64,000 nt of DNA, from positions 14,423,001 through 14,487,000 of the forward strand of contig NC_092680.1 in NCBI RefSeq assembly GCF_964355755.1. The letters are read 5' to 3'. The position numbers and the translations under genes are program-made. Positions 1,793-36,750 of this stretch are shown in pieces. The stretch is from Antedon mediterranea (lineage: Eukaryota > Echinodermata > Crinoidea > Comatulida > Antedonidae). The notes beneath the pieces were generated by a model, which saw nothing but the letters and a program-made list of their open reading frames with translations, did not search any database and had not been told where the DNA came from. Numbering within the stretch: position 1 is the first letter of the stretch; every line of letters begins with the position of its first letter.

Positions 1793-4700
1793 CAAATATA
1801 GCAGCAAGGACAAGGTTAAATTGTTGCCCTCATCATCAGGTACCAAGCAGCACCATCACACACTATATTCCTCCATTTCCTCTACTTTTTGAACTATTTA
1901 CAACAATTGACCTGAAATATCTTCCTTAAAATGTGTTGATTAGTAATACCCTTTTGACACTAACATACAATGTTGTATTCATATGAGAGACTTGTGAAAT
2001 CTTGCCAGGATAATTAGAGCTCGATATATTTGATGTTGCAATTTTTCCACAGAAAAAAGACTTTTATTCGGTTTTTACATTACAAATGTATCATACATTA
2101 ATATCTTAATATCATGCAAAATAAAATATAAGATTTAGAGATGGCAATGTTCATTAAAATCCAAAAGTTTCATTGCTTATCTCTGAAATATAATTTTTTG
2201 CAGTTGGTTTACTGAAAATTCGGGGTATTTGGCTCACTATTGATGCCCTTCTTACAAGTGGGAAAGCCAAGCCTACAGGATTTGAAAAGGTAAGGCTTTT
2301 TTGTTCATATTTATGTTTTAAAGTCCATTCACATTGTATAGTAAACTCCAAAAACAAAGAATAACTAGAATTTAATTCGTCACTTTGACGAATTATAGGT
2401 GATCAATTTTATCATTTTAATGAAATTAACATTTTTTAAACATGCATGTACGTTAACATACGATCGTAAAAAGTTGATGTACGCCATCCTATGACATGAT
2501 GTGCTGAGTTGTACCTACTGTATTATGTGTCATATACAATATGTACAGTATATCTATATACAGTGTAGCATAGGTGAAATTACGGGACCCACATCATGTT
2601 CTAATTTTTTGTTATGATGGAATTATCAAATAAACTCGAAGATGACAATTTAGAAAGATAATGAATTGAGCAAATAAATATAAGGATTGGAAGAGAATTT
2701 GAAACATAGAAGCGCAATGCGCGCTCTTTGAAATTTGTATAACTTTGACTAAAGAAATTTAAAAACTACTTTTTAACTGGCCATTATGATAACATCAAAG
2801 CATCCGATAGGCTTAATTTTTATATGAATTCATATCTACATTTCATCAGCTTTCATAATAAGTTATAATCTTCAAGGTCACCTTTAATTCTGAAGAACTG
2901 TAAAATATATAGTGAAGGTGAAATTACACGACCTACGTTATTCAAGTTTTTACGCGTGATGACGTCATCAAAATGAAAACGCTGACAACTCATGAGAAAG
3001 ATAAATAATTAAGCAAGCACCTACTGAAATTTGTGCAAAATTCGTGCACAAATAACCGAGATGCGCTCTGTTGAATGTGATAATCTATGACGAAAGAGAA
3101 AAAAACCTAATTTTTAAATTCAAGTGGCCATTTGTTGACGTCACAACCTTTTGTACTTCAAATGTGTACATAAATTCATATCTACAACTCATTGGCTTCC
3201 ATAATAAGTTAAAAAAATTGGGGTCATCTTTCATTCTGACGAGTTATATTCATTTTAAAAAGGCCTTATTTTTTACCATTTTTAGCACTTTTGTACAATT
3301 AATGTGCGCATTTTGTCATTTTTAACGTGCTCGTATAGCACTATTTTAAGTCGAAATGAACTCAAATTTGGTGAATGTATTAAGGAAGATGAGTAGAATG
3401 CAAGTTTTTATTTGCTATTATTTTTTTTCTTGACCTGAAGTTCATTAATACGTGATAATGAAATATGGAGATACGATTGATAATGTGATTTCACAAAATG
3501 GCGTATACATGACGTCACGGATGAGTGATCACGCTGAAAAGCTTATTAGGACTAAGTTACAGTATTTTAAAGACATTGTGAAATTTTGGTAATCATTGAG
3601 ATTTAACTCCGACATTTTGAGATATTTGTTACACAAAAAGTGTACAGAAAGAAGAAGAAGAAGAAGAAGAAGAAGAAGAATAAAGATTTTATACAATAAC
3701 AATAGATTCAAGAAGATTCAAGAAATTTTATTTGTCCATAAAAATGGAAATTCACTTTGCTTGGTAGATTAAAACAACAATATTGCAACAATTTAAAAAC
3801 GTGCAGTATTATAACAGATTAAAAATACAAGATAAAAAGTTAAAAATACTGTTAAAAATGTAAAACTATTAAAAATTGCATTAACGTCTTACATTAGAAT
3901 TAAAAATATGAATGCTATTTACAACGAAGGATTTTCTAGTTCTACAAAGATTTGCTCTTGGAGGTCGTAGCCTAATGCCTGATCTATTTAAGTTATAACA
4001 GTAATGTAACGGATGAGTGGGGTCTTTCATAATATTGTTTACTTTTTTTAGAATACTCTTTTCATAGATAAATGAACAAGGCATAAGATCAGCTTTAATA
4101 ATACGTTGTGCAATTTTACGTGGTCTCTCAATATTTTTCTTATCATTTTCAGTAAAGTTACCATAAAAACATCCAATGCTAAAAGATAAAATACTTTGAA
4201 TAATACTTTGATAAAATAGAATTAAAATAGTGTTATCAACTCTAATTTGCTTGACTTTTCTGAGAAAGTAGAGCCTTTGAGATGCCTTCTTGGAAATCAT
4301 GAGAGAGTTTGACTCCCATTTTAATTTGTTATCAATTATAGTACCTAAGTATTTGTATTGGGTTACTCTTTCAACCTCGGTTCCTTTAATAGTTATTACA
4401 TTATGTTCAACTGCAGTTTTACGAAAATCTATTATCATCATCTATTAAGTATTAAGTTCATATCTTCACACCAATTAACAAATCTTCCAACTTCATTAAC
4501 AAATTCATTTACATTATGCTTACTATCGCAAAGAAAACCACTAATTACAGTATCGTCAGCGTATTTTACAATATTGCAATCTTTGCTTAAAATATTAAAA
4601 CTACTAGAATAAAAAGAGAACAAAATTGGAGAGATAACACATCCTTGAGGAGCTCCAACACTGGTAGATTCTTTGTTGGATAGGATACCATTGCACTTAA

Positions 4701-7700
4701 CTCCGACATTTTGAAATATAGGTGATCATTTTATTCTAAATGATCACCGAATCAGGAAAAAAATCTCGGACAATGCAAGCAAGGCTAAAACGCCTAGGCC
4801 CAGCCTAATAGGAAACCTTTTCATGCAACTGGAATTAATCCAGGCTAATTATGTTTTTTCCAACGATTCCACGTCTTGTAGATGTTCCCATTAATTAATC
4901 AAAATCCTAAAACAAACTAAAGCTAATTTAAATGCCTTTTTGAATGAAATTAGTACATATATATATGATGTATATATATCTCCAAATTGACACAAAAATA
5001 TGTTGCTGCATATCTTGCGGTGGTGTTTGCAAACAAAATAGAGACAAGACAACAGGTGGCGCTGTTGTATTTCACAGTAATTTGTACACTAGATTTTTTT
5101 TTCATCCACGAAATGTTTCTTTTTCGTACACAAAAATGTTTAAAAAGTACTATTAGTGCGTACTATTGCACGCCATGTGACCCACTATCATCCAATCAAA
5201 TGACAGGAATTATTAAAATAATTAAAACATATTCCAATCTTGAAAAATAAAGGGGTGGTCTTATTTTATTCTTGCGTGACATGAAGATGCTGTATATAAA
5301 TCTAGGAATTACATACAGTTTACCTAGTTTACTGCAAGTCCAGTAATATTGGAATATTGGTTTGTCTGTTACCGTACTACTTCATAGAAGAATTTTAATT
5401 GACAACATAAAATAACATTGAAAAAAAAAAATATTTATTTTTATAATATGTTTAAATTTATGTGAACAAAAATGATTTACTTTTATAGTTGTGATATTTT
5501 GATAATTGAATATGCAGATATGTGAATTAGATGAATTCAGTGAACAGTTTGTTTAGTAATTGATTATTTATTTACCAGATTTCTAGAGCGCCCTTTTCAT
5601 GAATACTCATGAAAGGCGCTTCACATCATAAAGACAAACATCATAAGCAATAATTATAAAAGATATAATTATGATTACTAATATAAATAATTTCTATTCT
5701 TTGATAAACTCATTAATGATCTCAATATTTTCAGGATTTTATTATGTACAATTCATTGTGAAAATATAACTGGTTTTAACAAGTATTACTATATTTTGAA
5801 CTTTGGCCTGTAGCCAAAATCTACTATGCACAGCACAAAGTTCAACATAAACAGGAAGGTCAAATGTCACAAAGCAAATCTTAGGTATTACTATAATCCA
5901 TATATGGGCATCTTAATTAGTATATGACCTATATTTTTTAACCTTTACTGCTGACCTTAGCCAGGATATGCTGATTTGCAAACATTTATCCAAAGGTCAT
6001 ATGCAAGCAATTATATGTTTTATCATCACAACCTTTCCAATGTTTAAATGTGTGTATTCTGTTGTGTATTTTGTGTATAATATCTGTTATTCTCAATATT
6101 TTGAAGGTAACTTTATATTTATTTATACTCTGTATTTGATCATCTAATTAATATAAAAGAAAATTATTTCTAAAATTCATTCTTATCTGAACATTTGCTT
6201 CAAGAAAATTATAATAAAATTATCTTATTTTATAATTCAGACCTATCTTTCATATTTATTGTTTCAAATGTGAATGAGTGTTTAATAAAAACAGGATATT
6301 GAAATATTATTAGAGTTGTATTTTGTAGCATTTAATCTTTCACACATATAGAAAATATCTCTATCGTGATCCATTGTATTTTTGATTTATTTAAAAGAAT
6401 TGTGTTGAATTTTTAACTTATTCATAGATAATATTCTTAATTTAAGATTATTATTATATACATTTCATTTGCCTTAGGTTACAAGTGTTGGTGAGAAGGT
6501 TATTTTGAGTGTCCTGAACAATATCCGCTACAAGGAATTTGATCGTCAACCCACCGATCCAGAATTTCTACCCCACTCGTTTGATGAGTACGCTAAACTC
6601 TTGTGGATAAATAACACGGCTGTTGGCTTTTATACAGTGAAGAAAAAAGGTGAAGCACATTGTGCCTTTTATACTAGCACACAACCAACTACAAACAAAA
6701 AGGTTTTATTTTGAGGTGTTTGGTCGTTTGTTTAGGTAGTATAGGTGTGTTTATAAAATCCATATAAAAAAAATCAATTATTAAAATCCAAATGTTACTG
6801 TTTTAATCAATGTGAATCAAATGTAGGCCTTGGCTAGGCTTACCTTTTATTTGATTCAAATAACAGGAATCTATTTAGATGTTATATAAAACAAATAAAA
6901 AGAAAAAAAATAATTTTTGACAGTAACAATAGGCTATCACTAGGCCTGCATTTTATTCAATCTGATTTTAAATAACAGGAATCTATTTAGATATAAACAA
7001 CTAATGAATGTTTTATATTCATGTAATGGTACAAATAATGGCATTTGGTGAATGATGAAAGGTTATATTTCACCTCATGCCATTATTTGTACTGTTCATT
7101 AAACTCATAAACATTCATTATTTGTATACTGTGCAATATAAAGTGCCTTGTTTGATTATAGAGAATAATGAAAGGAATTTGATGAAGCTGCTAGTTTTAT
7201 AGGTCTTTTCAGATGGGTTTTTACAAGTTTCTTAAAGACTTTTGTGGATACAGTGAATCTTTATCAAAGGCATCAACTAGTTACCACCTTCTTGTCATAC
7301 TAATAAACAAGAAAACAAAAATAGATATCCACTACAGACTATTATAAAGCTAAATAAAAATAATGTTTTTTTTTCCCAAAGGTACGTGGTGTGGAAGTCA
7401 ATCACAGGCTTTAGCATGGCAGCTGTCCGTCTTAGACACTGTGTATGTCAGCTCAAATCATAGACGCCAGGGTTATGGCTTACTGGTCATCAGAGACTTT
7501 CTTAACACATTTCCAGATGAAGATCTTGGGATATCAGAACCTGTCTCAGAGTCAATGTTACTAGGTATATTTTATTTATCACAAAAAAAATGGTTAATCT
7601 TGGTTGTATAGGATGTACTTCTTAATAATAAGTATAAAAGGGAATGGTTCCGGCTGACCTAAGTATTAAGCCTGCTTTCCACCAAAGGCGATTTTTGTTG

Positions 7701-10700
7701 TGTGAATTCAATGTTGTCACTGAGAAAAAAGAACAAATACTGTAATGTAAAGCCCTACATTTTTTAGATTTTACATTTTGAACTAATTCGCAACCTTTAT
7801 TTTGACAATTTAAGTTTCTTGGCGAATGTATTTGGCCTCCGTGATGAACGTCAAACAACAATTGAATAGCGTCAGTAAAATTACAGAATACATGATTGTA
7901 AATTTAAGGATGTAAATGAATAAACATTTTGGCTACACAGTGGGTGAGGCACATGTTTAACATGGCTCTTAGATAATGACTATTGTACTTTACCAAATAA
8001 TTATTGTTTGTTTCTACAACAACAAACGGACAGACGAACGCCGACTGGATGGATTTCTTGAGAGCATAGCAACATGGTGATGATATTTTTGCTATTTACT
8101 ACCACAAACTACTCACGTAGAATAATTACTTTATGACGCATTACAACTTATTATATGATTTAATGGACAAAGAATTCGTCAAGCAAATACACTATACATT
8201 TCATAAATTTTACCTAAGAAATGTTATAAGCTTTTTCCAATTGTTTTAGCAATCAATCCTCACACGGCGCCACGTTTCTCGATTTCCGAGGAAATATTTC
8301 ATCATTGTTTTGAGTGATGCGCAGGCTGAGTAGGGCCTATCATTTTCGATCGGTTGCAATTTATTTTAATGTTTTAATTAGCAATATAAATAATTGGGGA
8401 TCGTAAATGTTTCAAATAATACACAATTAGAAGTTTATCATAACTATTTTATATTAATTTTTTTTCCATATTAAACCTACTTAACTACGGTAGGCGTAAC
8501 TAACTAAGCCTAGACTAGGCCTGATCGATGGTAAAAACAACATTGTTAGGAATTTAGCGATTTTATTATACTTTATTTTAGCGATCGCTGTTTAATCGCT
8601 AAAGTCGCCAAAATAGCGCGAAAATGTTGGGCTTTAGAGTATAGTAGCTGCTATTTACATTTCCATTGTTCGGGTCACAATGGCATAATCGCATAATGGC
8701 ATAATCGTTTTTCTGTACGCAATATTCTTACGTATGATGTGCATGTGGCGTTTCCGCAGCGGATAATCTAACTCGTCCATAGTGACGAGTTCAAATCTAG
8801 TTAAAGAAATTAAAATGTATTTGTAAATTTTGTAATTTCTACTTTATTGCAGTGTGTAAAAGATTTGTTAAAGACGACCCCAAGGAAGCAGAACGGCTCT
8901 GGCTTTGTACCTTACCAGCAGACAACTCACATTCTGAGAATTTGGTGCTACGACTTGCATTTTCAGGTATGGCAAGTAAAACTAAAAAACGAAAGAATTC
9001 TGAGCCCAAGAGAATTGTATCAGATGCGGCTATTGCTGGTAACCAATCAGAAAGTGACGACTTTGAGATAGAGCAAGATTGTTCTGATGATGTAGCTGAT
9101 AAATCAGCCATAACCAGCTCATCAAATATTGACATTTATACAAATAGTCATTCAAATGTTTTGCGGAACTTCTCTGTCATTGCAAAAGCTTCTATGGATG
9201 AAAAAAAAGCTAAACAAACTGTGAGAAAAGTGTCAACTCCAATTTTACCAATGCAGTCTTTGTTACAAATGCCAGAAAATGATAATCAACCCATTGATGA
9301 AACAGATTACCCAGACATCTTAAAAAATGATGAACTAAATGAACCAGAAATAAATGATAACAATAATGCGCTGGAAGTTGATGCAATACAAGATACAATA
9401 TCTGAGGAAAATTTTGAGGATACACTAAATTGCTTTCCAGAATTGAACATGGAAAATAATTGTAACCAGGATAAGAATTCTGATACAGAACGTTCACAAT
9501 CACCAACAGGGTTTGCACCTGTTGCTGATAAGAGCCAGTACTATGTGAAGTCAGAGCCAATCAATGAAGAAGATTGCCCGCAGCTTCAAAATCAACATTC
9601 ATTGTCAAAGAAGAGGAATATGCTGGAAGAAGAACCATCATCATCATGTAGTGTAGTGATCAAGCAAGAACCAACATCTGATGATGATCAAACATTACAG
9701 CTAAATGTCAATCAACCATATTTATTTACCATGCAACAAAGTAAATTCAAATCTGATTTATCTGATGATGAAATAAATGATCAGGAATTAGATCTTGAAG
9801 ATCCTGTTGATACTGAACTGAATGAAAATAACAAAAACAAAAGAAAACTGTCACTTTTTGAGCACATGTTATTACCATCTGGACAAGATCAAGGATCATC
9901 TGGAGAAGGCACAAGCATTTTGCAGAATTTGAATCAGAGTCAAGGAATGATCAGTTCTCTGTTGCGCAATATTGCAGAGCAGTTGAAGGAACCAAGGACA
10001 ACAGCAGTTAATCATGAACCAATTTGGCAAACAAGAGCTACGCAAGAAACATGTGATGCTCAGTCGTCATTAGACTCGCAAAAGAGACTTCACAAAACAA
10101 CGTATCCTATCACAAAACTCGCTTCACACTTGGTAAAGAAAAAGCACAAAATGAAGGCCCGTGACTCTGATAAGAATTTTAATTATAAAAGAAAAGATTT
10201 AAGAAATATTTATGTTGAAGGACCAAGTAGACGCACAAGATCTCATTCATCAACTGATAATGTAACTAATCAAATTCCGGCATGGAACAGGCCAGATGAT
10301 GATGAAGAAGAAATTGTCGATAGTAGTAGCAGCAGTAGTACTAACAGGCGAAAAGCATCAAAAACAGTGAAAACATTTGTATGCAATTACAGAGACAACT
10401 CCCATCAATTTTCATCAAAGCCTGTCACATCAGGTGTTTGTTCCACAACTCATTCTTCAACTACCATAAGTTCAATACCTACGAAAAAGGACTTCCAGGC
10501 AGAAAGACCTGAAAGACCAAAGCGACCATTTAATATCGTTCAAGCTATGACTGTAAGTTGTCCGAGCTCAACTGAAAGCACTTTTCCTCAGGGTACGCTG
10601 TTTGATTCAACCATCGGTCTTGTAGACACCCATCAGTCTTTGAGTCGTTTGAATCGCGGCAGACCGCATGCTCCCTCTCATAGCGCAAGCACCAGTTCCA

Positions 10701-11134
10701 CTGTACATTCAGACTCTCATGAGGCACAGAGCGTTATGGCTTCAGGAAGTAACCTTGTAGACTCTCGATCTGATGCTCAGAATCCATTAATTCGTGGTTT
10801 ACTTGAGATGAGGGCACCATTAAAACGAACTTTAATGCAGATGAAACAAGAGAATACAAAAAAATCTAAATTAGTCTTAGAGAGTGCTTCTACATCCCAA
10901 GATGTCGAAACATCTGAAAACTCAAGACTGAATATTAACAGCATGTCAACGCAAACTGGAAATTATGTATGTGAACCGTGTGACATCATTTTTACTGACA
11001 GTGTGATGTATGTGCTTCACACTGGTTGTCATGGGAGACAACATGCCTATGAGTGTAATCAGTGTGGTACAATCTGCAGAGACAAGTACGAGTTCATGAT
11101 TCACTTTGTCCAAGGAATACACAACAGAGAATAG
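1793..11134 (+). CDS. FAM169: FAM169-family GNAT-like protein fused to Ikaros-type C-terminal zinc fingers (5' partial)
   Basis: Five exons join in phase: 1793-1839, 2204-2289, 6478-6649, 7382-7564 and 8853-11134, giving 922 residues in the window. Every intron is GT-AG and the summed coding length is a whole number of codons. The first four exons match the vertebrate FAM169A/B fold (soluble lamin-associated protein family): YAKLLW and GFYTVK in exon 3, LDTVYV plus a GNAT-type acetyl-CoA loop RRQGYG (7462-7479) and FPDEDLG in exon 4, then RFVKDD..ERLW at the start of exon 5. The rest of exon 5 is acidic, Ser-rich and low complexity, with several psi-K-x-E SUMO-type sites, and ends in two C2H2 fingers. 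Vertebrate FAM169 proteins, as I know them, lack these fingers. The N-terminal exon(s) with the start codon were not found and may lie upstream of the window. The 47-bp first exon is the least certain. Likely nuclear (inference). Confidence 0.85.
2365..3650 (-). mobile_element. Helitron-like non-autonomous element, copy A, with 346-bp tandem units
   Basis: The outer end (3' end on the minus strand) is CTAG followed inward by a 9-bp stem hairpin (TAATTCGTC at 2373-2381 with GACGAATTA at 2387-2395), the layout of a Helitron 3' terminus. Internally two units of about 346 bp are in tandem (about 2570-2910 and 2916-3256). Both contain ATTCATATCTACA, a CATAATAAGTTA word and a GTGAAATTAC word. The same material recurs inverted at 13140-14718 and, diverged, at 48600-49110. 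It lies in intron 2 of the FAM169-like gene, 75 bp past the donor. No rep/helicase ORF is present. The inner boundary is uncertain because a LINE interrupts it at about 3650. Confidence 0.55.
3651..3680. repeat. (GAA)n microsatellite
   Basis: About ten GAA units at the 3' side of the antisense LINE fragment. It is probably that element's simple-repeat tail read from the opposite strand. Confidence 0.9.
3690..4696 (-). pseudogene. 5'-truncated LINE reverse transcriptase fragment (Rex1/L2-like)
   Basis: Read on the minus strand from 4696 downwards: GAPQGCVISPILFSFY (RT block with PQG), KYADDTVISGF (catalytic YADD), a linker ending LILNR, then a second frame at 3881-4441 with YKYLGTIIDNKLKW and a C-terminal FLRKVKQ..YQSII region, typical of LINE RT thumb/C-terminal domains. 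The frame breaks near 4440. The 3' untranslated tail resembles that of the element at 61727-63840. The 5' part (endonuclease and early RT) is missing. Non-functional. Confidence 0.85.
4697..6477. other. Remainder of FAM169-like intron 2, no exon seen
   Basis: AT-rich intron. It opens with TAACTCCGACATTTTGA, a repeat of 3603-3619 on the far side of the LINE. Near 5565-5640 is a LINE-tail-like segment (GAGCGCCCTTTTCATG..GGCGCTTCACAT). The rest shows nothing recognisable. Confidence 0.5.
7001..7135. mobile_element. Palindromic MITE, copy 1
   Basis: A hairpin element: AATGAATGTTTTATATTCATG..GGTACAAATAATGGCAT on the left pairs with ATGCCATTATTTGTACTG..AAACATTCATTATTTG on the right, around a centre near 7060. 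A second, diverged copy at about 23456-23692 is split by a LINE tail. It lies in intron 3 of the FAM169-like gene. Confidence 0.6.
8676..8800 (+). mobile_element. Helitron-like 3' terminus, copy C
   Basis: Shares CAATGGCATAATCG..TTTTTCTGT..CAATATTCT with 14594-14718. It ends with an 8-bp stem hairpin (AACTCGTC 8770-8777, GACGAGTT 8784-8791), then CAAAT and CTAG, followed by host T. It stops about 50 bp before the acceptor of the last FAM169-like exon. Confidence 0.6.
8853..11134 (+). CDS. Last exon of the FAM169-like gene: disordered linker plus Ikaros/Hunchback-type finger pair
   Basis: One uninterrupted 2,282-bp reading frame, entered by the acceptor TTTATTGCAG and closed by TAG at 11132-11134. 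About 45 residues of FAM169 homology are followed by roughly 600 residues rich in Asp, Glu, Ser and Asn, with basic patches (KKKHKMKARD, RRTRSHSS). Psi-K-x-E motifs lie at 9545-9556 (VKSE), 9659-9670 (IKQE) and 10841-10852 (MKQE). The last 57 residues (10961-11131) form two C2H2 fingers: CEPC..HTGCH, then CNQC..H..GIH, with VMY and KYEF between ligands. Spacing and intervening residues match the C-terminal dimerisation fingers of Ikaros, Pegasus and Hunchback. Because both parts share one exon, a wrong exon join cannot explain the fusion. Confidence 0.9.
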
Positions 11135-11329: not shown

Positions 11330-11985
11330 AAATTGTTAAACTCGATTGTAAATAACTTGTACCTTCTTCCCTTATGAGCATACATCAATACATGTCTAAA
11401 CTTCTTAGAGTTGCGAATGAATTGACGATTTCGCCTATAAAATATACACATTTTAGTCCCTGGATGTAACATGATATCGACGTGTATATACATACCACAG
11501 TACAGCGAGCGATTTGTACAACTGCGTACCTATTGTTTAGTAGATCAAATAAGGAATGCCGCAGTTAGCTACAGTATTTATGTGTGGCTATGAAGTATCA
11601 TCATCTCATCATCATAGAGATATTATAGTGAATATTATAGTACACTATAATATCTCTATGGTATCATGTACTGTAGTTTACATATATCCTCCAGTGTTTT
11701 TCTCTAGGCCACCTGCCAATACATCAACTATCGATATTTTTACATTGATATATTTAATTTCCTCGACAAATGCAATCAAAATAAAGAGTGAATGACCATA
11801 ACAATGTTATTGTCCTTTGGTTAGTCACAGTTTACCGGCGAAAAAAAGTACGATCGATTTTCTCATTGATAGCATGCTACATGAGTGTCTTTTGGAGTAA
11901 TTTTAATGACATTTATCATGAATTTTATGTGCGAGAGTAGCATTTCCGGCCGTCTAGGGATGTCATTTAACAAAATTCGCTTCTG
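11330..11985 (-). repeat. Dispersed repeat family, copy 2 (inverted)
   Basis: Reverse-complement counterpart of 60-660. Shared landmarks in this orientation are TTAGTCCCTGGATGTAACATGATA near 11453 (quoted only in part elsewhere), ACCTATTGTTTAG near 11527, and GATGTCATTTAACAAAATTC near 11959. It lies in the probable 3' UTR of the FAM169-like gene. Confidence 0.6.
11613..11660. repeat. Perfect 18-bp inverted repeat (hairpin)
   Basis: CATAGAGATATTATAGTG at 11613-11630 is the exact reverse complement of 11643-11660, separated by 12 nt. It is AT-rich and lies in the probable 3' UTR of the FAM169-like gene, so it could fold in RNA. It may be a MITE remnant. Confidence 0.85.
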
Positions 11986-16044: not shown

Positions 16045-19000
16045 TCAATCTTCATCTGTTGAAGAATCGCTATGACAAGAGTGAGTAGAGTAGCATTTAC
16101 TGAGGTTATACAACTTTTCTAGACTTTCCTTGTAATCATCAGTTTCAAGGCCGTACTGTTCATAAGTGTTGAATTTCTTTATGTCTAATTTGTTTGCTTC
16201 CTTGTGTAGTGTTTCTAATGTTGACTGGATGCCTGCTGTTGACTGGAGCGACGTAATCATTGGAACACTTCTTGTAACTATGAAAACAGTAATAAAAATA
16301 ATGCTGGATTAGCTTAATTTAAATTTAAAGTACAACTAGTTTGATGTACACAGATCTTTAAATGTGGAACAGTAAAAGTAAATGTATACAGTACCTTGTT
16401 GTTCTTGTCCTGGTCCAAGAAGGAATCCATCTTTACTTAAATTTGGAGGAAATATCCTAGGATATGGGGTGGCTACTCTTGACGGTTCTTGAACAACATT
16501 CCCTGAGCTTAAAAATAAATCCTCAAATGTTAGACAATACAATAAAAAGAGGATGACTGATTTTAAAGGGACAAATATATACAACAATCCAAATTAAAAA
16601 TAAACTATTTTAACAGAAAAATAAAATATGAAAACTAAGAATAAAAAAAACAATTAAAAACTAAAAGATCTAAGAGCTAAGTGCTCTATAATCTTTCAAG
16701 AAATCTACTTTACCACAGGGTGTCATAAACAAAATCTGTATATTTTATTTTGTAAAGAGAAGAGTGTACATACTTCAAAGTTCTTGTGTAAGCAGTCATT
16801 AAATACATCTTAAGCATGTCCTCAGCAGTTGAGCAAGAGTCTAAGCTGGTCTTTGGAACACCATTTGATCGCCTATAACAAAAAAAAACCCAACATAATA
16901 TTGGATCAATTTTTACCTTGTTCCTACCGCAAAATTAACTATCTATATAATACTAATAGGGACTTTTTGATTTGCACATCCACTGTGTGGACTGATTTTA
17001 TGATTTGCACATCGACTACCAAATTTCAGAACTTGTTCAGTGGCATTTTGCTGTTCGCTCTCTGACTGAGTATGAGTGGATGTATGATGTCATAACACTG
17101 AAAAAGTTTACCAATATTATGATAAATAATGAGAGTTAGGCTAGGCCTAAGCTAAAAAGATAGCCTGGCTTAAGCTAAAAAGATAGCCTGGCCTAAGCCT
17201 GTGTATTACCACCGGCCCAGCATCAAAAAGTCTAAAAGTGCCTAATATCTCAATGTTCTTACATGTATAACTTTCTTTGTGAGACTCCACGTAAGACGAC
17301 TGACTGCATAAAAGGAGTGAGATGTAGGTTTGAATGAGGGGTTAGACTTTGCCACATTGGTATATCAGCATGCTTATTAAGTACTTCTGACAACGCTTCA
17401 TCTTGCGTCATTGCAAATGGAAAGGAAGTATTCAATGTGGCAACCTAAAAAATATAACAATTTAAAAGTTTTGAACATTAACAAATGCTATTACTTGGAT
17501 TAATAGCAGTTAACAACAACTACTGTGGGCAATGGTAGCTATCAATATTTTGTATGTTAAAGCTTATGTTACAGTGTATTGTTAATATATATTTAAATAT
17601 AACAATTAATGTTTTGAACAATATTCCAAATAAAAGAAAAATGTTAATAAAGGCTTGATAAAATGACGATAAAAGATAAATTGGTTGAGGGCGCTGAGCT
17701 AGCTGACGACCTCGTTGATTTTCTCATGATTTTTTATTTTTTTGCTGTTGTTTTGTTAACTTTTTGATGTCGTATTGTGTTATGTCTGTAATTTTGCTGT
17801 TGTTTAGTGGATTTAATCATTGCTTTTTTTCGGTCATTTCGATTGATTTCCTGATTTTCATCTTATTTTCGATGAAATCTGCTAGGCCTATGCCGGACCA
17901 AGCCTGCTCTACTTGCTCTACTAACAGTTGTATGCCTTGCTGTTCTCAACTCACGCCTGGTAGCACTAACAGCTGGATTCCTACCAGGCCTAGGCTTCGG
18001 CCTAGCAAGAGAGGAAGACGTGGTGGTTCTCATATTCATCGACGTATACCAGTGAGAATTAGTTCTTATGCTTCTTTGCCTAACTCTAATAAAAGAAGGA
18101 AAAATATTACTCATTTTCTGCATCGACAACTGATAAACATCCCATTATCAAATAATGTGGGTGCCAAGGATAGACCATCTTCTTGCCAACTACCTTTGTT
18201 TTTACTTACCAATGCTCAATCTCTTTGCAATAAACATGATGAATTGAGTTTGTTATTAAACACCCAAGGGGTTGATGTTGGAGTATTTACTGAATCCTGG
18301 TATGGACCTCATATATGTAATGCTCAAATTCATGTTCAAGGATATTCATATTTTGGCAAATGTAGAGAGGATCGACGTGGAGGCGGTGTGGCAATTTATG
18401 TGAAGGATAACATTGAATGTGCAATCCTTGACATCCCTGTACCACCTGAATTGGAAGTCATTTGGATAAACTTAAAATGTTCTCGTCTACCAAGAGGAAT
18501 ATCATCAATCGTTGTTTGTGCTATCTACATCACAACAGACTCCCCATATCAACTTCTTCTTGAGCGGCATATTTGTGAAACGATTGACCTTATTCGTTCT
18601 AGATCACTTCAGACTGGTTTTTGCATTATGGGCGATTTCAACAGAATGAACATTAACTACATTTTACGTAATAACTGTTTAAAACAAATTGTTAATTTTC
18701 CAACCCGTGAACTTGCTACATTAGACCTCATCTTGACTAATTTTGAAACTAAATACCATACCCCAGAAGCGATGTCTCCTCTTGGTTTTAGTGACCACAT
18801 CTGTATTTTATGGAAACCTAAAGTTCAAGCTATCAAAAATGTTGTTAAATCTATAAGTGTTCGTCCCTTATATGATACCAGAATAAGATCGTTTGGCACC
18901 TGGATTGTATCTCAGAATTGGAATGATATTTATAGCTGCATTTCTACACAGAGTAAAGTTGATGCTTTCTATTACAAACTGATCACTGCTATTAATAAGT

Positions 19001-22000
19001 TTTTCCCGTTGAAAAATATTAAAACGCACAATACTGATAAACCTTGGCTAACACAAAATATCAGAAATTCTATTTCTGAACGCCAAAAAGCGTTTAAATC
19101 CAATAACTTAACCCATTGGAAAGCTTGCAGAAACAAAGTCAAGAGGGAAATCATTAAAGCTAAAGTAAAATTTAATGTAGATAGAGTTAGACACCTGCAA
19201 AAAACTGACCCAGGTAAATGGCACCAACAGGTCAGAGTTATGACAAACACTAAGAAAATTGATCTCAATATACCAGTTCCTGAAATCTCTCCATTGGATC
19301 ATAAATCCATTGCTAATGTCATCAATGACTTGTTTACTAACATTAGTGCTCACATCCCTTTTCTAAATAAAACTCAACTCCCTGCATTCCTTCCCTCTGA
19401 CAAACCTGCACCTAAACTTTATCCTTGGGATATTTATAAAAAATTAAGATCTATTAAAGAAAACAAGGCCTGCGGACCAGATTTGGTCCCACCCAAAATT
19501 GTTAAATTATTTGCCATGGAGTTTTGTGAACCACTTTGTGATATACTCAAGTGTTCTTTTTCTGAAGGCATTGTCCCTTCTCAGTGGAAAAAGGCAGTTG
19601 TAGTCCCTGTGCCCAAGGTTCAGCCTCCTACTATTGACAAACTCAGACCTATCTCCATTACTTCTGTGTTTGCCAAAGTAGCTGAGGAGTTTATCACTGA
19701 CTGGATCTTACAAGATATAAGTTCAAAAATCGATGTTAACCAGTTTGGAAATGTTAAGGGTTTGTCTACTGCTCATTACCTGACCCACTTGGTGCATTAT
19801 CTCTGTCAAGGTGCTGAGAATAAGCACAATGTTGGTACCATGGTTCTTACTGATTTCTCCAAGGCCTTTGATCTTATCGACCATACCATCCTTGTTAATA
19901 AGATCATTGATATTGGTGTCAGGGGGGCTTTGGTACCATGGTTGTGTGATTTTCTTTTTATGCGTATGCAGTGTGTTAAATATAATGGTACCTTATCTAA
20001 TTACTCTTACTTAAAAGCTGGTGTCCCACAGGGAACCAAGTTAGGCCCTTTATGTTTCCAGATCATGATCAACGATGCTGGTACAAATGCTAAAACTAAG
20101 TATCTGAAATATGTAGATGATCTTACATTTTGTGAAAATCGTAAGCTCTCATTGCCTGGTTTTTTACAAGATGATCTTAATTCTTTTTTCCGCTGGTGTA
20201 ACGACAACTGTTTAGTGCTTAACCCCAAAAAATGTCAAGCCCTTAAGGTGTGTTTCAGTTCTACCCAACCTTCACACGTTGACATACACTTGGGAACTGA
20301 TAAGCTCCAATATGTTAATAAAGCCAAGATCCTGGGAGTTTTTTTTCAAGACAACCTTAAATGGGACTGTCATATTGATTCCATCATCACTAAAGCTTCC
20401 AGGAAACTTTTCTTTTTACGATCACTAAAACGATTTGGTTTTAACATTGAAGAGCTTAAATTGACCTTTTGTGGTTACATTAAACCAGTTGTTGAGTATG
20501 CTGATGTTGTTTGGCATTCTGGCCTGTCTAGTAGATTAAGCGATTGTATTGAAAATGTTCAAAAGAGGGCTTGCCGTATAATGTTAGGCAATGATTACTT
20601 TTCTTACTCTGGTGCCCTTGAATTTCTTAAATTAGAGACTTTGGCTCAAAGAAGGGTGGAGCATTGTCGCAAGTTCGCTGAGTATCTCCCCAAAATTAAA
20701 CAAACAGCTGATTTAATCCCACCGACCAGACATAGCTGTCATGGTAGGAATTTAAGAAATAAAAACAAAATTACCCAGCTGGCGTCTAAAACATCCAGAT
20801 TTACCAATAGCCCTATACCCTACTTCATCAAATTACTGAATTCTTAATTTTCTCCCCTGCTAGTTTGCGACTGCTCTCCCCTTCTTTGTTGTTTTTTTTT
20901 TTTTTCATATTTTTTATATATATTTATATTTTTGATATGACATGTATTTTACACGCAATTTGGCTCTTAGCCACGAGTTGTAATTTTGGTCAATTTTTTG
21001 ATATTTGAAATAAAAGTGAATAATAATGAATAATAATAAATTTACATTTTTCTAAAGTAAAAACAAGTTTTAGAACTATAAAATAACCATTCATACTGTC
21101 ATCAATGAGAATAATATTTTCAAAAATCCAATCAATTGTTGTCATGATAAGCAAGAAACAATAACATTTATACAATGATTTTATTGCTCTTTATTGATCA
21201 TGGTGTCATTGACGAAAACTTTTCAAATATTATTTTATTTAGTAAAAAATGTATACAGTATTTATTTTTTTATTATCATTGTTTATCGAGCATAGTATAA
21301 AGAAGTCATAATACATCTATTACTGGCATTTGGATGTTTGGTAGAAAAGTGTGGACAAACAAATTCAGCATGGCTAACATTAAAAATAAAAACATCATTT
21401 AAATTATTACCTGAATTTTAATTAGTCTAAACAAAACACAAAACTTTTTTGTTTATTAAAAAAAAAATGAATAAAAGATAAAATGCATTAAAAAAAGTAT
21501 CTTCTATCTGTCTATATTTTATCTGTATCAATAATAAAAATTTCGGACTTTACCTTTCTTCCCATTGCTGAAAATGTGTCTGTGAGCTGGTGTAAAGGTA
21601 GCAGGGCTTCTTGCATTCGTAGACCTAGTGTGGCTGTGTCTAATGCACTCGCTAATATTGCACTTGTATGATAATTCAAATTGGGCTAAAATATTAACAG
21701 TTAATAGTTTTTATCATAACCATAAAGTGAATTTTGTAGGATTTTATGAGATCACATCCCGAAAGTAAAATCTCAAACCTTATCATTATAGCAAATAATG
21801 GTATCTTAAATTATATAATAAATTAATAACAAAATGTAATAGCTTTCTACAAAATTTCATTCCAGCAGTACTGTATGTTACAAAAATAATTAGGAATTTA
21901 CATGACTTCCAAAGTTCCTAAAACTACTTTAAATTATAATTGATTGCAATTATAAAGTATATACATGCTTAATGATTTACCTTATATGCTAAATTGTTAA

Positions 22001-28000: not shown

Positions 28001-31000
28001 GAAAAAATCTCAGACGGGGCGTTTATTTAGAAACAATACAGTAAATCTGATTTGAGGCTTCAAACCGTTATTTTCTCGCATCTATAACAAAATGTTGCAA
28101 GTTACCATAATTGTTTTTCCTTCTCTGTACAGTACGTCATGATTGATTTCTTTTACTTGTGATGATGCTTGATTGATGTCATAACAAAACGTTGATTCCT
28201 AAAACAATCAAATCCATATTTAAATCGTGTGATTAACGACAACAAGGATGTGTACACTTATATAGTAAACCCTACTAATTGTGCATTTATCTAGTTTGAG
28301 TTATTTGAGGTATAGTGGCTAGGTGAATTCGGTTTGTTTTTGGTTATTTTCGGTTGTTTTTGGTAATTAGACTGACCCGTATCTGGTGGTGGATTTTTTA
28401 GACAGTTACTTTAAACTTTTCTTGCCAGAATAATGAAAATCAAAATATTAAATTACTGTACCTTTAAGAAGTATATAATACGGTACACTATCTTTAGACA
28501 TCACAATGTAAATCGTATATTGATGGATTCCAGTTCAATGTATTTTCCTTTTTTTTAACGCCGTGGGTACCGTTAACTTCTGTTTGCTAAAGGTACCGTG
28601 GTACGATATAATTGCATTACGTCATAATCAGCCAATGTACGTGTACGTCATCGTATAATAAGGACTTTGGATTTTTTTTCATATCGCGTCTGTAGAGAAT
28701 GCCCGTCGCCGGCGCCAGGTTGGATGTGTGCGATGTTTCTGTGACTCAGCCCCGGGGCTAGACCTAGCAATGTTGAATCCAGAAGTTTAATAACAGGCGA
28801 CAACGTCGAAAAACATGCTGAGTGTAGGGGTCAGTCTAATTACCGAAAACAACCGAAAACAACCGAAAACAAACCGAAAAAAAAATTTTAAAAATCTAAA
28901 TACCGAAAACAAATTTTGTATAATATTTTTTTTAATGTCGCCCTCTATTGATGGGTGTTTCTAAAGCTAAGACCATACAGAGGTGCAAAAGCCAAGGAAG
29001 ACCCTAAGAAATTGTAGTGTGCACAAAATACAACTCAAAATCGTACAAATTCAATGAAATAGATTACATTTACTTACAAAATCTATAAACCCATTTCGTT
29101 TTTAGTCTTTTAAAAAACAAAGCATGATTTTATCTAACTTTGCGTTTTTTCGTCCCCGGTTTTCGTCACTTATTAAGTGAATACTGAAGCGATTAAGGAT
29201 AAAAACGTTATTTACTCGACTACAGTAATTTTACTGAATAGATTTTATTGTGAATCCTTTTATAGTGAGCTTGTTTTAAGTATACTTTATAGTCCCTAGT
29301 ATCTTTGTATAATTATCTTTGAAAATCTATAATTAAATCGATCATGATTAACCATAGTCAATTTACTTTCTATACTATGGATTAACATATTCACAATTAT
29401 TGTAAGGAGTAATGCGCTGGTTTCTGGATCAAAAATCGAAAGACTAAAATTAAAATATTTTTATAGATTCTGTAAGTAAATGCGATGTTATCATTGATTG
29501 ATTGCATGATTTTTAGTTGTATTTATTTTGTGCACACTACCATCGTAGGGTCTTCCTTGGCTTTTGCGCGCGCGGTTTTGTCTCTGTTATGGTCTTAGAT
29601 TTAGAAACACCCATCAATAGAGGGCGACATTAAAAAAATATTATACAAATTAGTTTTCGGTATTTAGATTATTTTATTTTGTTTTCGGTTTGTTTTCGGT
29701 TGTTTATGGTTGTTTGTGGTTGTTTTCGGTTGTTTAGGGTTGTTTTCGGTTATTTTCGGTAATTAGACTGCCCGGAGTGTAGTAATATAGGAAATTAGAA
29801 AGTTCATGTGGTTGGTTGATGTTACATAAATTTAGTGTTTAAAACATGCACTCAATCTCAAATATTATTTCATTATACAACATTTAGTTGTATAATCTTA
29901 TATGTTGATAGCCAAATTAGAAGTAAAGGAATTATATTTCAATGTTGGAAATTGTGTTGCGTCTAGGCCAGTGGTGGCGCCAGCGGGGGGGCTACGGGGG
30001 CTCTAGCCCCCTCGTCGGGGAGCCTAGCCCCCCCGTCGGGGAACACGGGTACTTTTTGTCGGGGAATATAATATACAGTAAAAAGCGTTCGCGTTCACTT
30101 CGTAGCTAGCTTCAGCGCCTAGAAAACCACGACGTTTCATTGACCGTGAGAGTACGTCAGAGTGATATTATGCACTTTATATGCATTCATTATTGCCAGC
30201 GATCTAACTTACTACTAAACAATAGTTAGGTTCGCACTTGTCTGGCGGTATCCCTTTGTACGAATCGTTCAACGTTGGGTCGAGACGCGTGATATCAAGT
30301 TCCATCCAGGGACCAAAATGTGTAATGTAGTTATTTTCCAGGCGAAGTTTACCGACGGTTACCGAAGGGAACACGGGTACTTTTTGTCGGGGAATATAAT
30401 ATACAGTAAAAAGCGTTCGCGTTCACTTCGTAGCTAGCTTCAGCGCCTAGAAAACCGCGACGTTTCATTGACTGTGAGAGAGTACTGTACGTCAGAGTGA
30501 TATTATGCACTTTATATGCATCCATTATTGCCAGCGATCTAACTTACTACTAAACAATAGCTAGGTTCGCACTTGTCTGGCGGTATCCCTTTGTACGAAT
30601 CGTTCAACGTTGGGTCGAGACGCGTGATATCATGTTCCATCCAGGAACCAAAAATGTGTACTGTAGTTATTTTCCAGGCGAAGTTTACTGACGGTTACGT
30701 CGTGTACTGCGTCGACGTACGCTACACTACAGCAAAAACAAATTATGTTAATTGTTCGTATGTTCACCAATTTTTTAATTTACAAGTAACCTTCTCTACC
30801 GTGGGGCACCTAAAATAAATTTTTCATCCATTACTAAACAAAAAAACATGCCATTTTCGCTTAGCCAACATCTTATTATAGCTAAGTTATTACATTTTCA
30901 ATGTCCTGTATGTCATGAATTTCTCACCACTCGGAAGTCCAGATGGTGGTACGCACGCATACACTTGGGAGGAATAAACTTATTTCCCCGACTGAAAAAG

Positions 31001-34042: not shown

Positions 34043-36750
34043 TTGGTGCGTTTTATCAGAGCCTTATTATTATATCGTGCTCAGCGTTTTATATTATATA
34101 GAACCGGTAAACAGACCAGAGGAGACCAAAAACCTAGGCAAATAATTGCTAAATTTATCTATAGACCAGAACGAAACGAGGTTCTTAAGAAGGTGAAGTC
34201 ACTGATAAATATAGATTTTTATGCAATGGAGGACCTTACAGCATCAGATGCCAAGAAGAAACGTGAGTACCGAGACATAATGTTGAAAGCATACAATGAA
34301 GGAAGACATCCTGTATTTAGAAATGGATCATTATATATGAAGACGAAAATACAACCGCATTTAACTATAAGGAAAACTATTACTTTAGTATTGATACATT
34401 TAAATCCACGTTCAGTCAAACGTCAACTAATAGTTTTTCTATGTTTGCATTAAATTGTAGAAGTATTGTAAACAAATTTGAAGAATTTAAAAATGATGTA
34501 TCCTCCCTCGATTTTTAATTTAATGTAATAGGACTTACTGAAACTTGGCTTTCAAGCAAACATCACCTTGGTTTATATACACTTCCAAACTATACACCTA
34601 TCTTTAAAAACCTAGAAACCCAGACAGGGGGATGTGTAGCATTGTACATTACAGTCAAATATATCATATCAAATAAGAAATGACGATCTGCTATGATAAA
34701 CGATGGAGAGTGCATTATAATTGAATTAAAAAATAATGATAAATCAATTATATGTGGAATAATCTATAGGCCTCCTAAAGCCCATATTCCAACATTTACT
34801 AATCAACTTAGTGAATTAATGCACATGATAAACAATGAAAATAAAAAGGCATACCTTATGGGTGACTTTAACCTAGATCTACAAAAATATAACTGTGACA
34901 ATAATGTTTAAACTCATGTAGACAACATGCTAACAGAATCTTTCATTTCACTAGTTAATAAACCCACCCGAATCACAAAAGATACCGCAACAGTAATTGA
35001 CAATATTTTTACAAATTATCAGGAATTCCAAAATATTAACACAGGAATATTAGTTAACGACATATCTGACCACTTTGCAGTTTTCTGCATGGATGATTCA
35101 GAAAATTATTCATTACCACGATCAGAAAAATTTGTAATAAAAAGAAGCTATACTGATCAACAAAAACGGCAATTTAGACTTGAATTACAGGGCTATGATT
35201 GGCAATATGTAACTAGCATTGAAAATGCGAATGAATCATATAAACGTTTCTCAGATTCTTTAAAAACAATTATAGATAAGCATTTCCCACTAAAAACAGT
35301 TAGGTTAAAAGTAGATACAATTAAATCCCCGTGGATAACATATGGAATTCAAAAATCTCTTTGTACGAAAAATAAATTATACATCAAATATAAACAGAAA
35401 CCAACAGATATAAATAAATCTAAATATAAGAAATATAAGAATAAGTTAACATCAATAATAAGAGAAAGCAAAAAACTACTTATTACAAAAATGAATTTGA
35501 AAAGCACAAGAGTAATATAAAGAAAACATGGGGTGTCATAAACTCATTATTAGGTATGAAGAAACATCAAGACATGCCTCAAAAAATGAAAATCAACTCC
35601 CATCAACTTAATGACCCAACATCCATAGCCAATGCGTTTAACACATACTTTATAAATATAGGTGACCAAATGACAGGTGATGATAACCGTAATAGTAACA
35701 CCGAATATAAAATACAACATGACATTTTGAATTCAGTGTTTTTTAGAGCTGTATCCGAGTCCAATATCATTAAATACATTAATGACTTAAATGTAAATAA
35801 GTCAAGTGGTTGTGATGACATTGGTACTTATATAAAAAATAACTCAGATATACTGGCTAAACCGTTATCTCATATAATCAATGTATCCCTTCAATCGGGT
35901 GTATTTCCTTGTCAACTAAAAATTGCTAAAACAATTCCTGTGTATAAAAAAGGAGCAAGGGAGAACATAGAAAATTACCGATATCGATATTACCATGTAT
36001 ATCTAAGGTATTTGAAAGGGTCGTATATGACCAAACAATCGCTTTTTTGTGTAAATATGATATGTTACATGAATCTCAATATGGATTCAGGGCAGGTCAT
36101 TCAACTAACCACGCCCTCCTACAAGTCCTTGATAAAATAACAACAGCCGTTGACAACAAGCAATTTATGATTGGCGTATTTTTGGATTTATCCAAGGCGT
36201 TCGATTCGATAGATCATGAATTATTGCTCACAAAATTGCCCCATTATGGAATAAGAGGCGTGGTTCTTGATTGGTACCGAAGCTACCTTAGAGAAAGACA
36301 AGTGTCAGTCTGTAACCAAAATAATAAAACAAGGCGTTCTACAAGGGTCAATCCTTGGACCCCTGCTGTTTTTGATTTTCATAAATGACATGTTTTCTGT
36401 AAGTAATGTCGTTGATTTAATAATGTTTGCAGATGATACGAATATGTTTTTACAACACAATGATATCGTCACTGCCTTTACAATAATGACAAATGAACTA
36501 AATAAAAAATGGTGTAAAACTAATAGAACTATTAATACAACCAAGACTACTTTAATTAATATTTAATTATTGTTTATTGTAATTGATACAATTATTAGTG
36601 TATTTTGTACTGGTGAAACCAGGCTTAAAGCTCTATATTGAGCTTATTTGGTCTTTTCCAGGCTTTGCATTTTTTATTTAATACTTATTATGTAAAACTA
36701 TTAAGTTTGATGCATTGTGAAATAAAAACGAACGAACGAACGAAATGAAT
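34043..36750 (+). pseudogene. Frameshifted LINE with L1-type ORF1 remnant, endonuclease and RT
   Basis: The first 300 bp encode an ORF1 C-terminal domain of the L1 ORF1p type (IAKFIYRPERNEVLKKVKS, YAMEDLTASDAKKKREYRD). Endonuclease follows in pieces (IGLTETWLSS near 34530, YRPP, LMGDFNLDL at 34855-34881, ISDHFAVF near 35065). RT follows (YGFRAGHSTNHALLQ, FLDLSKAFDSIDHELL, GVLQGSILGPLLFL, catalytic FADD at 36427-36438). Several stops and frameshifts separate these, and the RT C-terminus is cut short. The 3' end is AATAAAAACGAACGAACGAA, a CGAA-repeat tail. Jockey-superfamily (Nimb-like) is my best guess. Confidence 0.85.

Follow-up and report, generated by a model that had tools for sequence, protein, structure and literature searches.

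A predicted FAM169-type protein of Antedon mediterranea ending in an Ikaros/Hunchback-type finger pair

The 64-kb window of the Antedon mediterranea genome analysed here (the whole stretch of DNA under study) raises the question of whether a FAM169-type region and a C-terminal pair of C2H2 fingers of the Ikaros/Hunchback type (DZF) belong to one protein, and what such a protein would do. We hold with high confidence that the gene encodes a GNAT-like FAM169 head, a long linker and a C-terminal DZF pair. This architecture taken together with DZF-mediated dimerisation is considered probable.

The gene lies on the + strand, with exons at 6478-6649, 7382-7564 and 8853-11134, and probably also at 2204-2289, that join in frame at AG/GT sites; 3/3 junctions are phase-consistent and the sole stop is the terminal one. 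The probable FAM169-head coding exon at 2204..2289 (GLLKIRGIWLTIDALLTSGKAKPTGFEK, with a split first codon) is flanked by AG at 2202-2203 and GT at 2290, its phase fits the next exon, and its likeness to FAM169A was judged by eye only, with no tblastn match. The FAM169 exon at 6478..6649 (VTSVGEKVILSVLNNIRY...AVGFYTVKKK) was assigned by tblastn match, splice sites and phase, and the one at 7382..7564, which holds the GNAT core, by tblastn match and the Pfam match of the joined head. The last coding exon (8853..11134) follows the acceptor TTGCAG, joins 7564 in phase 1, and opens with a split codon, after which come 759 complete codons and a stop. The sequence-only reading had placed the gene at 7382..11134 and had described a single-frame exon of 2.28 kb. 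Both statements hold, as 7382 is the first base past an AG acceptor, the stop codon ends at 11134, and 8853-11134 (2282 bp) is open throughout up to the two C2H2 fingers. The GNAT region lies mostly in 6478-6649 and 7382-7564, and probably in 2204-2289, and is thus partly outside 7382..11134. A human N-terminus used as query for FAM169 N-terminal exon(s) in the 20 kb upstream gave nothing convincing (best E 1.6); genome-wide it gave no match, but the overlapping known exon at 6478 was also missed by that search. Rfam and tRNA scans of the 64-kb window were empty.

Assignment of the head was made with human FAM169A as the query. In tblastn, its match to exon 6478-6649 reached 41% across 68 aa (E 8e-13) and extended past the donor; that to exon 7382-7564 reached 34% across 61 aa (E 4e-8). 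FAM169 homology had also been claimed for the long exon; this stood for its first ~16 residues, and beyond them no support was found. The homology ends at 8855..8902 (+ strand, CKRFVKDDPKEAERLW), a segment that alone gave E 3.3 by tblastn against FAM169A; when the segment was joined (SESMLLVCKRF...LW), its score against the same protein was reached by 0/2000 shuffles. A profile search of the head bore out its proposed acetyltransferase likeness, with the joined head matching Pfam Acetyltransf_1 at 21.2 bits, just above the cut-off of 20.7. By itself, exon 6478-6649 had no Pfam match and exon 7382-7564 fell below cut-off in the Pfam GNAT models; against PDB sequences the joined head matched nothing at E <= 10. 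RRQGYG at 7462..7479 (+ strand), the one match of a pattern search in 907 aa, is an intact GNAT motif A (R/Q-x-x-G-x-G/A). The Acetyltransf_1 match and RRQGYG point to a GNAT fold with an acetyl-CoA loop, and the conserved GNAT-like N-terminal region argues for FAM169 membership. On this sequence evidence the gene represents FAM169 in this animal. No second FAM169 locus was detected in the 354-Mb genome by a search that misses matches of ~40% identity, so a diverged second copy could have escaped.

Both C-terminal fingers are present with the Ikaros-type ligand spacing that had been ascribed to them, C2C12H3H-7-C2C12H5H. Finger 1 lies at 10970..11032 (CEPCDIIFTDSVMYVLHTGCH) and finger 2 at 11054..11122 (CNQCGTICRDKYEFMIHFVQGIH), both on the + strand and both identified by genome search, profile and spacing. 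The same spacing occurs in 4/5 other DZF pairs of the genome vs 2 of 230 distinct generic adjacent pairs (22 loci). The pair forms the extreme C-terminus, with three residues left before the stop codon, and carries the signature residues F-x-D-x-VMY, H-x-GCHG, ECN-x-CG and DKYEF. A search of the 354-Mb genome from the window pair recovered the pair itself and five further loci with E between 1.9e-13 and 1.1e-9, the next match being at 5.0e-4; from the Ikaros pair the same six loci were recovered (window 2.2e-13, sixth 8.0e-13, next 1.5e-4), so that in both directions the same six DZF loci are followed by an E-value gap of >5 orders of magnitude. The Ikaros/Hunchback affinity of the fingers, which the sequence-only reading had staked on a profile search, was upheld in that they scored as DZF and not as generic C2H2: with a DZF profile built without the window pair, the latter reached 65.0 bits and the best-scoring generic pair 37.7, in a control of 57 frames, 414 fingers and 323 adjacent pairs that included the DZF loci and repeats of two. 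In a tree of 15 hand-chosen rows, among them five generic pairs and four reference sequences, the window pair fell within the DZF pairs (support 99/98), and hhalign gave it 118.8, whereas two generic pairs reached 49.8 and 64.5. Spacing and signature, C-terminal position and grouping against generic C2H2 fingers all indicate that the pair belongs to the DZF class.

The opposite view, that the fingers are generic C2H2 and resemble Ikaros by chance or convergence, draws on a phmmer search of the PDB in which PRDM9, ZNF568, CTCF and others were placed above Ikaros entries. This ranking says little, since with the genome's own Ikaros DZF as query the best PDB match is HIC2 (47.9 bits, with Ikaros entries at 34.6) and no close DZF structure is apparent among the entries searched. 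Genome searches in both directions, the DZF profile, the tree and hhalign each set the window pair apart clearly; on these grounds a chance generic pair was rejected, and we regard the generic reading as very improbable. A different doubt concerns the long exon, within which alternative splicing or a second promoter could leave most FAM169 protein without fingers, a second product carrying them. Its splice-like sites, one strong donor (10553) and a putative acceptor whose last base is 10683, lend this some substance. However, the whole exon is open, and loss of the 131 nt between donor and acceptor would shift the reading frame ahead of the fingers. Under a first-order Markov model with the exon's dinucleotides, the longest open run in 200 trials of 64 kb was 210 codons and the mean longest 139. 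In a codon-usage test trained on five DZF genes only, the exon's frame was best of six in 11 of the 12 tiles of 8853-11134, with one tile near a tie; the miss was the last tile, over the fingers (0.10 vs 0.14 in a reverse frame), and the best score was that of the tile covering the putative 131-nt intron. Among control tiles, which overlap the background region, the frame with this index came first in 2/27 and reverse frames in 19/27. Such alternative use of the exon appears improbable. The frame is one exon with coding signal along its length, and on these grounds both a merger of two genes and an assembly artefact were rejected.

The genome's other five DZF genes, one of which is a clear Ikaros orthologue, all have further C2H2 fingers upstream, within the same open frame in four and 22 kb upstream on the same strand for Ikaros; the window gene is the only one of the six bearing a FAM169 head. 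No finger-like motif besides the pair was found in the 907 residues of the model (which starts short of the 5' end), and a protein lacking DNA-binding fingers would not be an Ikaros-family factor. IKZF1-5 and Hunchback have the same C-terminal spacing and most of the signature residues in common with the window pair, which is identical at 26/53 positions to IKZF1, 24/53 to IKZF5 and 19/54 to Hunchback. These factors have N-terminal DNA-binding C2H2 fingers, whereas the window protein, in the part seen, has the FAM169 head instead. PF precedes finger 2 in 5/5 other pairs of the genome vs AY in the window pair, which also has the lowest score of the six with a DZF profile; its partner choice may therefore have changed. 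The closest precedent is TRPS1, in which a DZF pair likewise sits on an unrelated head (23/51 identities in the pair), although that head is a GATA DNA-binding protein and not FAM169. Seven GATA places were found in the genome, none within 3 Mb of any DZF locus; the only one on contig C11 is at 5.70 Mb and the window is at 14.42 Mb, so that no GATA finger of the TRPS1 kind lies nearby. To our knowledge, DZF pairs occur in transcription factors that also carry DNA-binding fingers of their own, as Ikaros and Hunchback do, or a GATA finger, as does TRPS1. FAM169A/SLAP75 (soluble lamin-associated protein) and FAM169B resemble the window gene in exon homology across the GNAT-like region and in the long acidic tail that follows. 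The vertebrate FAM169A C-terminus, as far as we know, is a basic stretch without fingers, whereas the window protein ends in the DZF pair. SLAP is reported to have a GNAT domain at residues 120-230 and a nuclear-envelope location (PMC10958201), and FAM169A to be an envelope constituent found by lamin A BioID (PMC12024899).

The linker between head and fingers is long, of low complexity, acidic and serine-rich. Pattern searches marked several candidate functional motifs in it, all on the + strand: a nuclear-localisation-like cluster, KTKKRK, at 8978..8995 (the protein has four such basic matches in all), and the SUMO-site-like VKSE at 9545..9556 and IKQE at 9659..9670, each followed by acidic residues and each one of three matches. 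Directly before finger 1, STQT at 10946..10957 is LC8-anchor-like. TQ[TD] occurs within ~20 residues upstream of the finger pair in 4/6 DZF genes (1.6-3.6% each by composition), for a motif chosen after the sequences were inspected, and the P for TQT in the window segment alone is 0.028. In a motif-blind test, some tripeptide was common to at least 3/6 segments in 1544/20000 shuffles, and ENS was as frequent as TQT. A shared LC8 motif is only suggestive given this non-significant result and the equal sharing of ENS, and as a common part of the DZF module it was rejected. TRPS1 is reported to have a SUMOylated C-terminal repressor region, to depend on its finger pair for repression, and to be bound by LC8a.

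As the most likely mechanism, it is proposed that the window DZF dimerises with another copy of itself, with that of Ikaros-/Hunchback-type factors of the same genome, or with both. Once dimerised, it would bring the FAM169 head, in mammals associated with the nuclear envelope and possibly an acetyltransferase, to chromatin bound by DZF factors. Dimerisation, engagement of Ikaros factors, nuclear location and acetyltransferase-like activity are what we infer from the two families. Alternatively, the factors may be sequestered, as they are by DNA-binding-deficient Ikaros isoforms, which titrate partners in a dominant-negative manner. That the protein is mainly such a partner, its DZF titrating Ikaros/Hunchback-type factors and its head serving only as a localiser, accords with these isoforms and with the finger-free remainder of the 907-residue model; but the intact GNAT motif A suggests a head with a role of its own, and we consider this reading rather unlikely. 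A dedicated adaptor, whose DZF heterodimers would tether the target genes of Ikaros-/Hunchback-type factors to either the nuclear lamina or a FAM169 acetyltransferase, is likewise a tentative suggestion of low probability. PMC12506653, citing McCarty et al. 2003, describes DZF pairs as mediating both homo- and heterodimerisation; citing Giesecke et al. 2006, it notes that C. elegans HBL-1 does not homodimerise, and its own authors saw no binding of HBL-1 to five further members of the Ikaros family (without showing the data). That not every DZF pair dimerises counts against the dimerisation reading.

As to origin, the DZF end could be an old part of invertebrate FAM169, lost in vertebrates and widespread but merely undescribed, and not a new fusion. 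We give this reading a little under an even chance. Among the DZFs of its own genome the window pair has no close counterpart (best 50%), and the tree gives it no firm position inside the DZF clade; both would be expected after an old split. No FAM169 copy without the finger pair was detected in this genome. The reading concerns origin and is compatible with the proposed architecture and dimerisation. No relative with the finger pair was found in a viral contig collection, and none of 43 stretches matching the FAM169-head pattern in a prokaryote contig collection was confirmed, as expected for an animal gene and silent on its origin within animals.

In the accessible text of the literature naming FAM169 together with Ikaros, the proteins were mentioned apart, with nothing on such an architecture. 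The gene is a real combination of two known modules that is apparently undescribed. What FAM169 does is poorly understood, and the presence of a DZF on a GNAT-like protein associated with lamins suggests that FAM169 and regulators of the Ikaros/Hunchback type are physical partners. From the fusion of these domains, the separate proteins are predicted to interact in other animals, for example FAM169A with IKZF1-5 or TRPS1. If the adaptor reading is true, the gene would represent an ancient enzyme or lamina arm of the Ikaros system; in vertebrates this arm would work in trans, and in this animal it would be an integral part.

The FAM169 gene could be joined from three forward-strand exons, at 6478-6649 and 7382-7564 (each with an AG acceptor and a GT donor) and at 8853-11134 (AG acceptor, ending with the stop codon). 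Their phases are compatible, and the single stop is the terminal one. A further upstream exon fits on the same strand at 2204-2289, where the phase agrees; searches with human FAM169A, in the window and in an insensitive genome-wide scan, did not reveal the 5' exon(s). The sequence-only reading had proposed a single 2.28-kb exon open in one frame from FAM169 homology up to the fingers, and this held. The last exon spans 2282 bp, with 759 whole codons ahead of its stop, and the longest open run in random sequences with its dinucleotides was 210 codons (200 trials of 64 kb). By codon usage, its frame outranked the other five in 11 of 12 tiles; it lost in the last tile, which covers the fingers (0.10 vs 0.14), and one tile was nearly tied. 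Among 27 control tiles, which overlap the background region from which the scores derive, this frame index came first in 2. Inside this exon, a strong GTAAGT donor at 10553 and an acceptor-like site delimit 131 nt (10553-10683) whose excision would put the finger pair out of frame. The donor may allow alternative splicing, possibly a regulated splice that would switch the dimerisation pair off.

For the head of the protein, human FAM169A matched both middle exons: 68 residues aligned at 41% (E 8e-13) in the first and 61 at 34% (E 4e-8) in the second. The homology carries on into the start of the last exon, where 0 of 2000 shuffles reached the score; by itself this piece gave an E of only 3.3 in tblastn. 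Pfam Acetyltransf_1 scored 21.2 bits (cut-off 20.7) on the joined 187-residue head, the GNAT models falling under their cut-offs when exons were taken singly, and the protein carries RRQGYG, an acetyl-CoA loop motif. No PDB chain matched the head at E <= 10. A genome-wide search for the head gave three places, all exons of the window gene, and no second FAM169 was detected; a diverged copy could escape it, because a comparable search with human FAM169A missed even the exon at 6478.

The condition set as refuting was a profile search that scored the fingers as generic C2H2; their affinity to Ikaros was evident in profiles, searches in both directions and a tree. The 354-Mb genome (18 contigs, the window at C11:14423001-14487000) was searched with the last 57 residues, which found themselves and five loci whose E-values ranged from 1.9e-13 to 1.1e-9; the next match was no better than 5.0e-4 among the 150 of 361 candidates scored (at least 145 matches at E <= 10). 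A search begun from the closest of the five, the Ikaros pair of this genome, returned the same six places (window 2.2e-13, sixth 8.0e-13), with a seventh-best match of 1.5e-4 among 150 of 1179 candidates scored (at least 35 matches at E <= 0.01). A profile from the five other pairs gave the window pair 65.0 bits vs 37.7 for the best generic C2H2 pair, and one from four reference pairs 63.7 vs 36.0; in hhalign it reached 118.8, two generic pairs 49.8 and 64.5. In a 15-pair tree it grouped with the dimerisation set (support 99/98) without a fixed position there. It shares 26/53 residues with IKZF1, 24/53 with IKZF5, 23/51 with TRPS1 and 19/54 with Hunchback, which share about as much among themselves (17-28 of 52-54). 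Against a dimerisation-type assignment, AY stands ahead of the second finger where 5/5 other pairs have PF, the score with the profile of four reference pairs is the lowest of six, and phmmer against PDB places generic fingers above Ikaros entries. The PDB ranking says little, because PDB seems to lack a close structure of this type: the genome's own Ikaros pair has HIC2 as its best match (47.9 bits) and reaches only 34.6 with Ikaros entries.

Among the other loci, L011-L014 encode C2H2 fingers upstream in one open frame with the pair. The best genome match to an Ikaros DNA-binding region (58%, E 6e-29; runner-up 2e-18) lies 22 kb upstream of L010 on the same strand. L010 is the Ikaros orthologue (G000:C2:33046177-33068347, with L034 and L035), its DNA-binding-type fingers lying ~22 kb upstream of the pair's exon. 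None of the seven GATA places in the genome falls within 3 Mb of any of the six loci; therefore, no TRPS1-type gene was seen. With fingers upstream in all five others, the window gene is the sole one of the six that lacks them in its known part, and it has the FAM169 head where they would be.

The protein's tail holds short patterns, namely SUMO-like sites, an NLS-like cluster and TQT ahead of the fingers, which would fit a TRPS1-like repressor tail. An LC8-anchor-like TQT/TQD lies within ~20 residues ahead of the pair in four of the six genes (10946-10957 in the window; the exons of L011, L013 and L014), and this sharing had no significance in a motif-blind test.

Elsewhere in the window, a long LINE-type open frame at 17719-20847 encodes both a reverse transcriptase domain (Pfam RVT_1) and an endonuclease domain (Exo_endo_phos). 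Retroelement-like remnants, judged from the look of their open frames, lie at 3881-4725 (within an intron of the FAM169 gene; Pfam ALKBH8_N), 34912-36566 (no Pfam match) and 58966-59808 (zf-RVT). Reverse-strand exons at 46901-52059 resemble an MFS transporter, SLC17-like by eye; one gave MFS_1 at 29.6 bits, under the cut-off of 33.4, and another nothing. An inverted repeat whose 18-nt arms match perfectly around a 12-nt loop (11613-11660) lies ~480 bases 3' of the stop codon, and tandem arrays occupy 30039-30698 (335 bp units), 41846-42294 (233 bp) and 50723-51084 (19 bp).

We know of no earlier instance of FAM169 combined with this finger pair. Both modules are already known, and database entries with the combined architecture may exist undescribed. 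The available text of literature naming FAM169 together with Ikaros says nothing of such an architecture. The Ikaros-family C-terminal pair mediates both homo- and heterodimerisation (McCarty et al. 2003, cited in PMC12506653); HBL-1 is an exception for homodimers, and no binding between it and five further members of the family was seen (data not shown; PMC12506653). TRPS1, a GATA factor with the same pair, requires it for repression and also binds LC8a (PMC3972667, PMC4202153). Mammalian FAM169A is SLAP, a nuclear envelope protein whose GNAT domain was placed at residues 120-230 by homology assessment (PMC10958201). The window protein would dimerise through its pair with itself or with the genome's other factors of this type, and dimerisation would deliver the FAM169 head to the sites of those factors. 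Tethering to the lamina could be a further step: genes are silenced at the lamina (PMC8855600, on the hb gene rather than the Hb protein), and SLAP/FAM169A localises to the nuclear envelope.
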